From an uncultured Methylomonas sp. (GTDB lineage Bacteria > Pseudomonadota > Gammaproteobacteria > Methylococcales > Methylomonadaceae), in assembly GCA_936941155.1 (NCBI GenBank), contig CAKZJE010000031.1, positions 186,001-250,000 of the forward strand: a stretch of DNA of 64,000 bases, written 5' to 3'. Both the position numbers and the translations under genes were made by a program. The first letter of the stretch is position 1. Every line of letters starts with the position of its first letter. Of the stretch, positions 25,783-64,000 are shown piece by piece. The notes beneath the pieces were generated by a model. It saw only the letters and a list, made by a program, of their open reading frames with translations. It did no database searches and was not told where the DNA came from.

Positions 25783-26018
25783 TATCCTCTCCTTATTTTT
25801 AATAATTTAAGAGGCATAATCAGCAGGTTGTATGCCAGAGTAATTGTATTTATAAATCAAATGCTTATCGGCTATTTTTCTGGAAAACGTATTAAACTAT
25901 GTTATAAACCACAGTTACTGGGTTATTTGCCTTATTTTGAAAAAAAGAATCGCGCTTTAACTTTCAAAAAAATGCAGTATCAGCAAATTTTCGCGCTTAA
26001 GATTGATTTTATATCTTA
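25783..26018. other. Intergenic region with no supported gene
   Basis: A 65-codon plus-strand frame (25828-26025) lacks a ribosome-binding site and family features. The rest is AT-rich promoter-like DNA leading to the 37-bp motif. Confidence 0.4.
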
Positions 26019-26055
26019 TAATTAGATATAAAGTTCAAAATATATCGTTTTATTA
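26019..26055 (+). promoter_or_regulatory. 37-bp AT-rich motif, copy 1 (putative CysB-type site)
   Basis: Begins TAATTAGATATAAA and ends TATATCGTTTTATTA. It shares length and both conserved halves with 30020-30056 and with 63044-63080 (reverse strand). It lies 56 bp before the ATG of the unknown membrane protein; a weak TAAACT follows at 26072. Confidence 0.6.
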
Positions 26056-26110
26056 ATTAATGAAAACATTTTAAACTCTCAGCCATCAACCAATTATTTT
26101 CGACAGAGGC

Positions 26111-26923
26111 ATGATGGCTATTTTTATTGAATTCGTGATTGGCTCAGTCCTAGCGATTTATTTTCATTGGGTTTTGCAATACGAACAGGCGGCTTACACC
26201 TTGTTTGGTATGGGGATTTTGCTGTCATTGGCAACGTATTTGCTGCAACATCAAATTTTAACGTCACAAAAAGCCTTAGCTGAGCTGTATCAAAGCAATC
26301 ATGAACTTTCCAGCGCGTTAGCCGCGATTAACGACCCCGAATGTGAGCTGAAATCCCAAGAACTTTTAGCCGATTTCAAAAAAAATCTTGCACAATTGCA
26401 GCGCGGTTATCTATTGCTGAATGAAGCGGAGTTTTATTTGGAAGGCGTGAAAAGCGTTTCTCAAAGTAATTTGCATGTGAAAGCAGTTGATCCGTTGGAA
26501 GTGGGTTGGGAAAGTCGCGGCGCGGTGCGCAATTATTATCAGGCGAATTTGCAGGCTCTCAGTCGTGGCGTGCAAATTACCCGCGTGTTTGTGATTAGTC
26601 GGCGCGATTTGCTGAATCCTGATGTGCAAAAAATTTTGCAACAACAGCGCGATGACGGAGTGGAGGTGTTAATCACTTATCGGGAAGATTTGGCGATTAA
26701 TGTGGCAAATCAAGAGGTTTATTCGCTGGATTTTGCGATTTATGATGATGCGGTTATCACCGATCGTGGACGCGAAAAAGGTTTGTATTTTGGCAAGCGC
26801 ACTCAAAAAACGGCGGAAATTGTGAAATATCAGCGGTTATTTGAGTTGATTCATCATCATGCGCATCGTTTTTTAAGTGATGAAGAAACGGAGCAGTATT
26901 TAGTTGAGTTGGTGAATAAATAA
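26111..26923 (+). CDS. Membrane-anchored protein of unknown function
   Basis: 270 residues. Two closely spaced N-terminal helices (about 4-20 and 27-45) form a hairpin anchor, followed by a helical/coiled segment (about 50-115) and a cytoplasmic alpha/beta domain (about 120-255: SRGAVRNYYQANLQALSRGVQITRVFVISRR, YSLDFAIYDDAVITDR, LYFGKRT). The last part resembles the phospholipase-D-like or TrmB-C-terminal sensor fold but lacks an HKD motif. AGAGG precedes the ATG. It shares the 37-bp upstream motif with the sulfate transport operon, which suggests a link to sulfur regulation. Confidence 0.7.
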   Translation: MMAIFIEFVIGSVLAIYFHWVLQYEQAAYTLFGMGILLSLATYLLQHQILTSQKALAELYQSNHELSSALAAINDPECELKSQELLADFKKNLAQLQRGYLLLNEAEFYLEGVKSVSQSNLHVKAVDPLEVGWESRGAVRNYYQANLQALSRGVQITRVFVISRRDLLNPDVQKILQQQRDDGVEVLITYREDLAINVANQEVYSLDFAIYDDAVITDRGREKGLYFGKRTQKTAEIVKYQRLFELIHHHAHRFLSDEETEQYLVELVNK

Positions 26924-29932: not shown

Positions 29933-30019
29933 TTGCTGCTCCTGTTTTACACATTATTTGCAACGATTATATCCCATCGTTATTGCCCGCCCTTCTTATA
30001 ATTCAGGCTGTTAATCTAA

Positions 30020-30056
30020 TAATGAGATATAAATATCTTTTTATATCGTTTTATTA
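30020..30056 (+). promoter_or_regulatory. 37-bp AT-rich motif, copy 2 (putative CysB-type site of sbp)
   Basis: Begins TAATGAGATATAAA and ends TATATCGTTTTATTA. It differs from copy 1 mainly in the central eight bases. CATAAT at 30076-30081 is a good -10 whose first base is 56 bp from the motif start; the -35 region is poor, as expected for an activator-dependent promoter. sbp starts at 30121. Confidence 0.7.
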
Positions 30057-30120
30057 TAAAAAGTGAGTTGTTTATCATAATCTCAACACGAATTTTTATT
30101 TCATTTGAGGCTCTAGGATT

Positions 30121-31125
30121 ATGAAAACTCAAACATGGCTTATCCGCAGCCTAATTGCGGCAACGATTTTAATCAGCGCGAATGCGTTTGCTGATCGCAG
30201 TTTATTGAATGTGTCGTATGACCCGACGCGCGAACTGTATCAAGAATATAACCAAGAATTTGCTAAATATTGGCAAGGAAAAACCAAAGAAACGGTGACG
30301 ATTCAGCAATCGCACGGTGGCGCGGGCAAACAAGCGAGAGCAGTGATTGATGGTTTAGATGCGGATGTTTTAACGCTGGCATTGTCGTATGACATTGATC
30401 AAATTGCGAAAAAAGCGAAATTATTGCCAAAAGAGTGGCAAAAACGCTTGCCGCATAACAGCACGCCTTACACGTCCACGATTGTGTTTTTGGTGCGCAA
30501 AGGCAATCCGAAAAAAATCAAAGATTGGGGCGATTTAGTGAAGCCGGGTATTGCGGTGATTACGCCGAATCCTAAAACTTCAGGCGGAGCGCGTTACAAC
30601 TATTTAGCGGCGTGGGCGTATGCAGAAAAAACCTTGGGTTCTCCTGCGGCTGCGAAAGATTTTATGAAAAAATTGTTTAAAAACGTGCCAGTTTTGGATT
30701 CTGGGGCGCGAGGCGCAACCACCACTTTCATTCAACGCGGGATTGGTGATGTGTTGTTGGCTTGGGAAAATGAAGCGTTTTTAGCGATTAATGAACTCGG
30801 CGAAGGCAAATTTGACATTATTGTGCCACCGACCAGTATTTTGGCAGAAACGCCTGTCGCTGTGGTTGACAATGTGGTGAATAAACACGGCACGCGTGAT
30901 TTGGCGGAAGCGTATTTAAATTATTTGTATTCGCCAGCGGGACAAAAATTAGCGGCAAAACATTATTACCGTCCGATTTCGCCTGAATTAGCCGATCCAA
31001 AAGACTTGGCGCGTTTTCCAAAATTGCATTTATTTACCGTGAATGAGCAGTTTGGGGGTTGGGAAAAAGCGCAGAAAGACCATTTTGATGACGGCGGCTC
31101 GTTTGACCAGATTTATACGCCTTAG
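30121..31125 (+). CDS. sbp: Sulfate ABC transporter substrate-binding protein
   Basis: 334 residues. Signal peptide ([15 protein letters not shown]) then the Sbp/CysP start [66 protein letters not shown] and [23 protein letters not shown] are the anion-binding signatures of this family. It captures sulfate (and thiosulfate) in the periplasm for CysTWA. First gene of the operon, downstream of the 37-bp motif and a CATAAT box. A 33-bp hairpin repeat separates it from cysT. Confidence 0.95.
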
Positions 31126-33284: not shown

Positions 33285-34307
33285 ATGAACAATCGCGGAT
33301 ATATTTATATTTTAGCTAATGGCTCAATGCCAAATTTAATAAAAATTGGCAAAACAACAAGATCATCTGCAAAAAGAGTAGAAGAACTATCCAGTCATAC
33401 AGGAGTCCCTACTCGCTTTATACTTGTTTATGAGCAATTTTTTGAAGATTGTTCAGTAGCAGAAGATTATTTACATACGACTTTAAGTAAATATCGCCAT
33501 GAAAAAAATAGAGAGTTTTTTAGAGTTTCTGCCAGCAAAGTAGTTCACATAATTTTAAAAATGTCTGGACGAATTGATGCTTTCGATGCAGCAGAAGCCG
33601 ATGAAATTTTCGTTAATGATAGTGAATTAAAAGAAATAGAATCTTATGGAAATACTCTTTGTAAAAATGCTTTAAGTTATCGGCTTGGATTATTTATTCC
33701 TCAAGATAAAGAAAAAGCAATAGATTTATATCGTCAAGCAGCAGAACAAGGTAGTTTAGAAGGATATAAACAATTAATTTATTTTGCCGATTTATTAAAT
33801 ATTGGTAATGAACCTCAAGATACTATAAATCTTTATAAAGAAGCAGCTTTATTAGGTTATTCAAAAGCTTATGAGAAGCTAGGTATGTTGTACGCTTATG
33901 GTGATGGCGTGCCTAAAAATAGGAAAAAAGCTTTTGATTATTATAAAGAAGGAGGTAAACGTGGAAATTATTATTGCTGGTTAAAAATGGCTACAACTTT
34001 ATTTTATGAAGATACATCTAATTATAGTAGATGTATTAAATTGTTTTTCAAACATCGAAAGATAGAAATGAATAAAACTATTTTAGATGATGAATATTTA
34101 TTTTCTTTGTATTGCATTCAATATATTGAATATTGTTTAAGAAAAAAACTAATTCCTATAAAAGATGGGGTTCAGCAAATGAAATTAATAAAAAAATCTA
34201 TGGTTGAATATTTAAAAAAAGAGTTAAAAGGAAAACAAGAGGAGTATTTTAATTTGCAAGATATTTATTATAAAAAAACTCTACAATGGGTTAGAGAAAA
34301 TTTATAA
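33285..34307 (+). CDS. GIY-YIG (T5orf172/MUG113) nuclease-like protein with Sel1 repeats
   Basis: 340 residues. N-terminal GIY-YIG variant (about 4-95): GYIYILANGSMPNLIKIGKTTRS, RVEELSSHTGVP, AEDYLHTTLSKYRHEKNREFF, matching the T5orf172/MUG113 subfamily with the catalytic Tyr/Arg/Glu pattern. Sel1-like repeats follow (about 130-225: YRLGLFIPQDKEKAIDLYRQAAEQGS, YGDGVPKNRKKAFDYYKEGGKRG), then a Lys-rich helical tail. It is much more AT-rich than the flanking cys genes, has no clear ribosome-binding site, and interrupts the sulfate operon. Function unknown; nucleic-acid cleavage or defence is possible. Confidence 0.8.
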   Translation: MNNRGYIYILANGSMPNLIKIGKTTRSSAKRVEELSSHTGVPTRFILVYEQFFEDCSVAEDYLHTTLSKYRHEKNREFFRVSASKVVHIILKMSGRIDAFDAAEADEIFVNDSELKEIESYGNTLCKNALSYRLGLFIPQDKEKAIDLYRQAAEQGSLEGYKQLIYFADLLNIGNEPQDTINLYKEAALLGYSKAYEKLGMLYAYGDGVPKNRKKAFDYYKEGGKRGNYYCWLKMATTLFYEDTSNYSRCIKLFFKHRKIEMNKTILDDEYLFSLYCIQYIEYCLRKKLIPIKDGVQQMKLIKKSMVEYLKKELKGKQEEYFNLQDIYYKKTLQWVRENL

Positions 34308-61807: not shown

Positions 61808-62713
61808 TTAATAATTTGCGTAACTATACTCGCGTACTTGCCGTTTATGGCTGACCAACCCCGCATTAGGCTTAGACAGTTTTTCATAATAAGCACCTTG
61901 CACAAAATTAAAACCGATTTGTGTTGCACATAAATCCTGTTCTGGTTGCGTCACCTCTTGAAAAACAATTTCGCCCCCTAATGAAGAAACTATTTCTTGC
62001 AACTGGCGCAATGCACTCGACAAAGTTGAGTGTTGTGCCAAGTTGCCGTAGTTTTCATGCGGAGCAGTCACGCAAACAAAATCAGGTGATAACAGCTTGA
62101 TTAAATTCAATATTCGATCGGCGGAAATTAAATGTCCAATATTTAACGCAATTTTGTAGCCGCAATCGCGATAATTATTTAAACCTTTTAATAATTCGTG
62201 ATGATGAACTTCATGGATTCCGCTCGCGGATAAAGAAATCACCACGTTTTTAGTTTCCAAGCCACAATGTAAAACAGTTTCTTCAAAATAAGTGCCGTGA
62301 TGATGTTTCACGCCAATAATATGGCGCGGGTCTACTTCTAAGCACAAAAAACTGTTTCGATAGCTGACTCCCAACCAATTTAATAAATGCACAGTTCGGC
62401 ATAAACGATCAAAATTGATAATTGAGCTGAAGTCGATTTTTTGCTGTCCCGGCTCGCAACTTAATAAATTTTCAATTTCAAAAGTTTGTTGCTGATGAAA
62501 AAAATTAGGCGAGGTGACAAGTTTTGCTTTGTGACCTGCAATAAAACTTGGATTAGCTCTCTCACGCACGGGCGTAAGCACACTGTCTAAACGATTTTTG
62601 CCAAATAATCCACTCACAGAACCGGCTTGCAAAACCAAAGGGCGAAAATCAAAACTGTGTTCTTGAGCGAATCTGTCATTAAAATAATCAACTAATTGTT
62701 GTAGCGACATCAT
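61808..62713 (-). CDS. Degenerate EAL-domain protein
   Basis: 301 residues. The C-terminal half keeps the EAL TIM-barrel layout (FLCLEVDPRHIIG, VISLSASGIHEVHHHELLKGLNNYRDCGYKIALNIGH, LLSPDFVCVTA, IVFQEVTQPEQDLCATQIGFNFVQGAYY, the last equivalent to the final LG-x-x-x-x-QG-x-x-x). The EAL triad and several metal ligands are missing or changed, so phosphodiesterase activity is unlikely; a c-di-GMP-binding or scaffold role is possible. AAAGGA lies before the two start ATGs. Monocistronic. Confidence 0.7.
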   Translation of the reverse strand: MMSLQQLVDYFNDRFAQEHSFDFRPLVLQAGSVSGLFGKNRLDSVLTPVRERANPSFIAGHKAKLVTSPNFFHQQQTFEIENLLSCEPGQQKIDFSSIINFDRLCRTVHLLNWLGVSYRNSFLCLEVDPRHIIGVKHHHGTYFEETVLHCGLETKNVVISLSASGIHEVHHHELLKGLNNYRDCGYKIALNIGHLISADRILNLIKLLSPDFVCVTAPHENYGNLAQHSTLSSALRQLQEIVSSLGGEIVFQEVTQPEQDLCATQIGFNFVQGAYYEKLSKPNAGLVSHKRQVREYSYANY

Positions 62714-62893
62714 ATTTTCCTTTAATCAAATGGTTGTCATCAGCTGTTATGGCGCGGTGACAACGTAAGTTACTTTAGCAATCGCAATTGCTACATTCCC
62801 TCGTTTTAGGGCTAATATTCTTAAAAAACTGTTGAAATTTGCGAACATGTTTTGAATGGTTTCTGAAAAGTAATCGACTCGGTAGTCCTGTTT
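62714..62893. other. 5' leader region of the EAL-like gene
   Basis: No gene. A spaced inverted repeat GTTGTCA ... TGACAAC at 62733-62765 could fold in the mRNA leader. The 69-codon minus frame at 62747-62956 runs through the sRNA terminator and is not supported. Confidence 0.35.
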
Positions 62894-63012
62894 AAAAAAA
62901 ATAGGTGGGCGATGAAACCCACCTGAAAGACATCCTTGTCTAAAGGTTATACACATCTAACGATTTACTTCTACACACTCTGGAGATTTAAAACATGAAA
63001 GCTAATTTACTG
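62894..63012 (-). ncRNA. Candidate small RNA divergent from cysB
   Basis: Read on the minus strand: a perfect TATAAT (63024-63019) puts the start near 63012; about 119 nt later there is a strong terminator, AGGTGGG / CCCACCT (62924-62903) followed by A and eight T. Before it lies a short stem AGACA-AGGA-TGTCT (62941-62928), and further 5' an unpaired AATCTCCAGA that could pair with ribosome-binding sites. No convincing ORF. The 37-bp motif (63080-63044) lies upstream at the same spacing as at sbp. Inference from sequence only. Confidence 0.55.
62903..62924 (-). terminator. Intrinsic terminator with no upstream gene
   Basis: AGGTGGG and CCCACCT, 7-bp GC-rich stem, 8-base loop, then ATTTTTTTT on the minus strand. 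The only upstream minus-strand promoter candidate is the one at 63019-63024. Confidence 0.8.
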
Positions 63013-63018
63013 CATGGG

Positions 63019-63024
63019 ATTATA
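63019..63024 (-). promoter_or_regulatory. -10 box of the candidate sRNA
   Basis: TATAAT on the minus strand, first base 56 bp from the motif start at 63080, identical to the motif-to-CATAAT distance at sbp. Confidence 0.5.
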
Positions 63025-63043
63025 GTAGTCGCTTATTTGTTTT

Positions 63044-63080
63044 TAATAAAACGATATAAATAGATTTTATTATCTTATTA
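63044..63080 (-). promoter_or_regulatory. 37-bp AT-rich motif, copy 3 (putative CysB-type site)
   Basis: On the minus strand it reads TAATAAGATAATAAAATC ... ending TATATCGTTTTATTA; same length and conserved halves as copies 1 and 2. It lies 46 bp before the cysB ATG but faces the other way, so it may serve both activation of the minus-strand transcript and autoregulation of cysB. Confidence 0.65.
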
Positions 63081-63126
63081 TTAGATATAATAATTAAACA
63101 ATATAACACTACAGTTTTTTAAGATT

Positions 63127-64000
63127 ATGAATTTAAGCCAAATTGAACTTTTACAAGTTTTGCAAGAAACTGAATTAAATTTATCGAAAGCAGCCGATAA
63201 AATGCACGTTGTGCAATCTGCGGTGAGTCGACAATTACAGCTGTTTGAGGCTGAATTAGGCTCACCTTTGTTTGAACGTCGGGGCAAAAAATTAGTGGAT
63301 TTAACGCCTTTAGGCAGACAAGTGATGGATGAAGTGGCTGCAATTAGCCAAGCAAAACAGAATATTAAAACGATTGCGGCGGATTTTTTAGATAGCAATC
63401 AAGGCACAATTCATATTGCCACCACTCACACGCAAGCGAAATATTTTTTGCCGTTGCCGATTCAACGTTTTAGAGAAAAATATCCGGGCGTGCGAATTTA
63501 TATGTTGCAAGCCTCACCCGAACAATTAATTGACCAACTGCATAATCACAAGGCAGATGTGGCGATTTGTACTGAAAAGGTCAGTGAAGATGCAGGTTTA
63601 GTGACCAAGCATTGTTATGAATGGCATCATGCGGCGGTGATGCCACATAATCATCCTTTAGCGACTGGCGAAATTACCCGCGAGCGTTTGGCGACCTTTC
63701 CCATTTTAACCTATAGCTTTGGTTATACCGGACGCTCTATGATTGAAAAAGCCTTTAAAGACAGAGGCTTGGAACTTGATATTATTTTGGCAGCCGCTGA
63801 TACCGATGTGATAAAAACCTACGTTAGATTAGGGCTGGGCGTAGGGTTAATTGCAGGGATGGCTTATGACACGTTTGCGGACAAAGATTTAGTGGTGCGG
63901 GATTTGTCGCATTTAATTCCGCGCTCTGTCACGCGGATTGCGTATTTAAAGCAAAATTATTTGCCGCTGTATAGTCAGCATTTTATTGAAGAATTGCTGT
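63127..64000 (+). CDS. cysB: LysR-family regulator CysB (partial, runs off the window)
   Basis: 291 codons without a stop at the window edge. N-terminal winged HTH (NLSKAADKMHVVQSAVSRQLQLFEAELGSPLFERRGKKLVDLTPLG), then a type-2 periplasmic-binding-like sensor with TTHTQAKYFLP, the CysB/Cbl sulfate and O-acetylserine site, and TDVIKTYVRLGLGVGLIAGMA. CysB activates sulfate uptake and reduction genes; sbp-cysTWA and cysI in this window are its expected targets. The upstream region carries a copy of the 37-bp motif shared with sbp. Confidence 0.93.
   Translation, partial: MNLSQIELLQVLQETELNLSKAADKMHVVQSAVSRQLQLFEAELGSPLFERRGKKLVDLTPLGRQVMDEVAAISQAKQNIKTIAADFLDSNQGTIHIATTHTQAKYFLPLPIQRFREKYPGVRIYMLQASPEQLIDQLHNHKADVAICTEKVSEDAGLVTKHCYEWHHAAVMPHNHPLATGEITRERLATFPILTYSFGYTGRSMIEKAFKDRGLELDIILAAADTDVIKTYVRLGLGVGLIAGMAYDTFADKDLVVRDLSHLIPRSVTRIAYLKQNYLPLYSQHFIEELL

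Follow-up and report, generated by a model that had tools for sequence, protein, structure and literature searches.

A predicted small RNA beside the sulfur regulator gene cysB in a family of methane-oxidising bacteria

Does the short intergenic region upstream of the sulfur regulator gene cysB encode a small RNA (sRNA) behind the same switch that controls sulfate uptake? The question arose in a 64,000-nucleotide stretch of an uncultured Methylomonas sp. genome (GCA_936941155.1, contig CAKZJE010000031.1, positions 186,001 to 250,000), hereafter the window. An earlier note on the sequence alone had proposed that the minus strand there carries a motif shared with the sbp promoter, a TATAAT at the same offset, about 119 nt without a credible open reading frame, and a terminator. 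We confirm these elements (Table 1). A BLAST search of the intergenic region against the whole genome recovered the sbp promoter (E 1.8e-9) and a third copy near 26009-26056, and a position weight matrix (PWM) built from 72 sites in relatives found only three such LysR/CysB-type boxes in the window, whereas the best score in ten Markov-simulated 64 kb strands was 6.5. The 15-mer TATATCGTTTTATTA occurs exactly three times in the window, and even with 2 mismatches allowed only 0.40 matches are expected. TATAAT and the CATAAT of sbp both lie 17 nt after the 38-nt PWM block, so the equal offset is real, although the -10 conserved across the family (TAnnnT) lies 3 nt further upstream. Two overlapping terminator-like sites were found, against 0.3 in shuffles. 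The only frame of note, of 69 aa, runs through the terminator and has no Pfam match.

Table 1. Features of the cysB-linked locus and of related sites in the window
Coordinates	Strand	Feature	Support
63042-63087	-	CysB-type (LysR) box, dyad plus TATATCGTTTTATTA, shared with sbp	PWM 48.8 bits (63079-63042); 87% identity over 47 nt to the sbp promoter
63019-63027	-	-10 region: TATAAT 63024-63019, overlapping the family-conserved TAnnnT (TACTAT 63027-63022)	promoter-like hit TTAAAA-16-TATAAT; same offset as in relatives
62894-63012	-	predicted sRNA, about 119 nt (start and end inferred)	covariance model R1 54.2 bits; jackknife model R2 46.0 bits, E 9.7e-11
62982-62985	-	CTCC of the window copy, outside the position where relatives conserve CUCCU	sequence and alignment
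62928-62941	-	hairpin AGACA-AGGA-UGUCU with GGA in the loop, CsrA/RsmA-type site	MFE fold; 11 of 12 match to RUACARGGAUGU (PMC7652899)
62894-62924	-	intrinsic terminator: 8-bp stem 62924-62903, then A and T8 (62901-62894)	stem covaries among relatives
62956-62747		69-aa open frame	no Pfam match
61808-62713	-	degenerate EAL-domain protein gene (301 aa), probably expressed by read-through of the terminator	weak Pfam EAL; YkuI 2bas E 5e-5; EAL folds by Foldseek on a predicted structure
63127-63999	+	cysB (runs off the window), divergent from the sRNA	NCBIfam CysB family models, best 320 bits but below their curated cut-offs
62815-62832 and 63111-63128		18-nt inverted repeat (94%) bracketing the sRNA unit
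30013-30058	+	same box in front of sbp (gene 30121-31125)	PWM 42.3
30076-30081		CATAAT of sbp	17 nt after the PWM block
26012-26057	+	same box in front of an unannotated 270-aa gene (26111-26923)	PWM 39.1 (26020-26057); gene without Pfam or NCBIfam match
33285-34307		GIY-YIG/repeat-type gene between cysW and cysA of the sulfate transporter operon

The next gene on the minus strand encodes a degenerate EAL protein. Foldseek comparison of an AlphaFold2 model (pLDDT 78.8) returned EAL structures, and in the alignment to YkuI the acidic and lysine residues expected of an EAL active site are, by our reading, mostly not kept. Orthologues at 37-48% identity in the same family carry the same upstream anatomy, with box, promoter, 80-200 nt, terminator and EAL start, and a scan of named genomes gives Methylobacter, Methylovulum, Methylotuvimicrobium, Crenothrix and, more distantly, Nitrosomonas. 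In the Nitrosomonas loci with cysB adjacent, and in Methylovulum, the box stands directly before EAL, divergent from cysB, without the RNA element, and our covariance model finds nothing there, so the box-EAL pair is older or wider than the RNA. This degenerate EAL-like family behind a CysB-type box divergent from cysB, shared by Methylococcales and Nitrosomonas (loci L092, L097, L106, L118, L121 and L147), has no NCBIfam name. The boxed 270-aa gene of the window has a homologue that in one genome (G001) lies between the EAL gene and sbp.

To ask how widely the RNA is conserved, we built a covariance model (R1; one stem, the terminator, plus sequence) from 52 elements. It finds the element in 126 of 151 genomes of the family at E <= 0.05, a weak tail included, and in 100 of 251 genomes of the order at E <= 1e-3, 98 of them in the same family (Methylobacter, Methylotuvimicrobium, Crenothrix and others); a cultivated, genetically tractable species, Methylotuvimicrobium buryatense 5G, carries it. 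A jackknife model (R2) built without the window or its genus still recovers the window copy, while the next window hit has 17.5 bits. The box is not part of the model, yet it lies upstream of 78 of 83 copies examined, with a median predicted RNA of 125 nt. The TATAAT-terminator pair, whose absence in close relatives would have spoken against the earlier note's proposal, is conserved in relatives across the family, although within the three-genome genus one genome lacks the RNA and in the other it sits before an EAL gene rather than beside cysB. Weak model hits without the AnGGA core (L225-L229), and one locus without the box (L230), are not counted as members; the former are other conserved CCUCC-plus-terminator RNAs, two of which (L225 and L226) follow an ATATTCC dyad, and are possibly further sRNA families. 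The RNA matches no Rfam 15 family: the only covariance match in the window was a tRNA, and a local E-value search gave only a chance snoRNA hit.

The conserved core of the RNA consists of CUCCU, then (A)CAnGGAUGU, then the terminator. AnGGA is present in 62 of 65 non-redundant copies, ACA in 45 and GU in 52, matching the CsrA SELEX consensus RUACARGGAUGU (PMC7652899). CTCC was seen 64 times against 15.8 in shuffles and CANGGA 50 times against 4.1, although relatedness inflates these motif counts. The GGA hairpin is short, and its pairing exceeds a deal-anew control only modestly (50 of 62 against a mean of 46, 9 of 3000 shuffles); individual cases in an incomplete letter-shuffle test of its stem were unimpressive, and the fold of the whole RNA is not unusually stable (z about -1). 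The earlier note had described a short stem, which is the GGA hairpin, without its CsrA-type character, and had not mentioned the EAL gene. It had also proposed that an exposed CTCC-bearing stretch could pair with ribosome-binding sites. This is the weakest part of its account here, because the window's CTCC is not at the conserved position, where the window reads CCUUU, and no conserved target was found: a search with GCTAGGAGGAGGT in six genomes of one genus (g12) returned, besides the sRNA gene itself, only scattered, non-orthologous sites at control frequency. We also considered whether CUCC and GGA form mutually exclusive hairpins, but their pairing is not above letter-shuffled controls (58 against 56.6 of 65). 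Nor did the inverted repeat around the unit suggest a mobile element, as no third copy with at most one mismatch was found in the genome.

Since most copies, the window's included, precede a degenerate EAL gene, the RNA might be only the attenuated 5' UTR of that gene, with CsrA or another factor deciding between termination and read-through. In some loci (L067, L057 and L039) the terminator ends about 25-50 nt before the ATG, leaving no room for another promoter, so that EAL there probably depends on read-through, and the loci in which the box precedes EAL directly indicate that EAL is an old target of the box. However, fifteen copies (14 loci of genus g12 and L181 of another genus) are divergent from cysB with no EAL gene and a convergent gene downstream; in 13 of the 15 the box scores above 20, and in two (L223 and L224) it is degenerate. 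Second copies also stand apart from EAL genes (L189 and L190), and Methylobacter luteus has two copies around its EAL gene (L070, 4881-4968 and 6511-6593), the second free of an EAL gene. Another boxed copy (L193, 1474-1562, minus strand) lies about 560 nt upstream of a cysteine-synthase-like gene. Two loci (L183 and L184) carry the RNA without box, cysB or EAL nearby, sharing instead a different conserved upstream stretch (TTCATCTTTGGTTAAGTTCA...TATAAAAT), and lie next to a cytochrome c gene. Moreover, there is no conserved antiterminator pairing, since RNAalifold finds only the terminator stem. We therefore regard a purely cis-acting leader as unlikely.

A pure CsrA-sequestering RNA under sulfur control, with no base-pairing function, would fit the near-perfect CsrA consensus in a loop, conserved family-wide, and the presence of csrA, but the RNAs carry only 1.98 GGA and 1.55 AnGGA each, where sponges carry many, and the strongly conserved CUCCU is not needed for CsrA binding; this possibility, too, seems doubtful. 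It is very unlikely that the transcript is the mRNA of a small protein, encoded by the 69-aa frame or by a short frame starting at the AUG of GGAUG. A 16-aa part of the 69-aa frame matches g12 loci, but this is explained by the conserved RNA core and terminator; the AUG is not conserved (GGACG, GGAUUG, GGAUCG, GGAAG and GGAUA occur), and reading frames in the RNA family are not longer than in shuffles. Equally improbable is that the region is only the cysB autoregulatory region plus a chance terminator: the box lies about 48 nt from the cysB start and could also serve autoregulation, but the core and terminator are conserved over many genera and away from cysB.

The reading best supported by this comparative evidence, in which we have moderate confidence in the absence of any measured transcript or binding data, is an sRNA of roughly 119 nt transcribed from a promoter that is inferred to be activated by CysB, and hence made when sulfate or cysteine is short. 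That a real family of terminated transcripts arises from this promoter type is highly likely, and a free-standing sRNA function is probable. The conserved hairpin, perhaps with a second, less conserved GGA, may bind CsrA, such that the RNA competes for or is stabilised by CsrA (csrA is present in 29 of 31 relatives); we consider this contact about as likely as not. In relatives, the conserved CUCCU could pair with Shine-Dalgarno sequences of target mRNAs with Hfq (hfq is present in 12 of 13 relatives), but this remains tentative, and more so for the window's own copy. In this and most genomes, the same promoter probably also feeds the EAL gene by read-through, so the same RNA appears as a stand-alone gene and as a terminated leader. 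A more speculative and unlikely scenario is that the RNA links sulfur starvation to the CsrA network, titrating or recruiting CsrA and repressing translation through an anti-Shine-Dalgarno segment as a sulfur counterpart of RyhB, with the co-regulated EAL protein acting on the RNA or CsrA as a CsrD-like partner.

No CysB-controlled sRNA was found in the open-access PubMed Central literature searched, and a CysB-linked family with a CsrA-type site and an EAL partner appears to be new, but its arrangement probably has precedents. In GcvB/GcvA, OxyS/OxyR and SgrS/SgrR, a short terminator-ended sRNA typically lies divergent from, and is apparently controlled by, a neighbouring regulator of the nutrient or stress response (LysR type for GcvA and OxyR); the RNA described here differs in its putative sulfur/CysB regulon, its unrelated sequence, its CsrA-type hairpin and the degenerate EAL gene that often follows. 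With the CsrA/RsmA-binding sRNAs (CsrB/C, RsmX/Y/Z, McaS and GadY) it shares GGA in a hairpin loop with the ACA..GU context and, like McaS and GadY, has about two GGA together with a possible pairing region, but it has few sites, a CysB-type promoter and no Rfam match. Anti-Shine-Dalgarno CCUCC sRNAs, such as the CcsR-type RNAs of Alphaproteobacteria, probably offer a parallel for the conserved CUCC/CCUCC segment next to the terminator, although lineage and promoter differ and here there is a single CUCC stretch, degenerate in the window's genus. Finally, CsrD, a degenerate EAL-GGDEF factor of CsrB/C decay (PMC7652899), is likewise a degenerate EAL protein linked to an RNA with a CsrA-type site, but here there is only an EAL-like domain, the link is only genomic and there is no evidence of a role in RNA decay.
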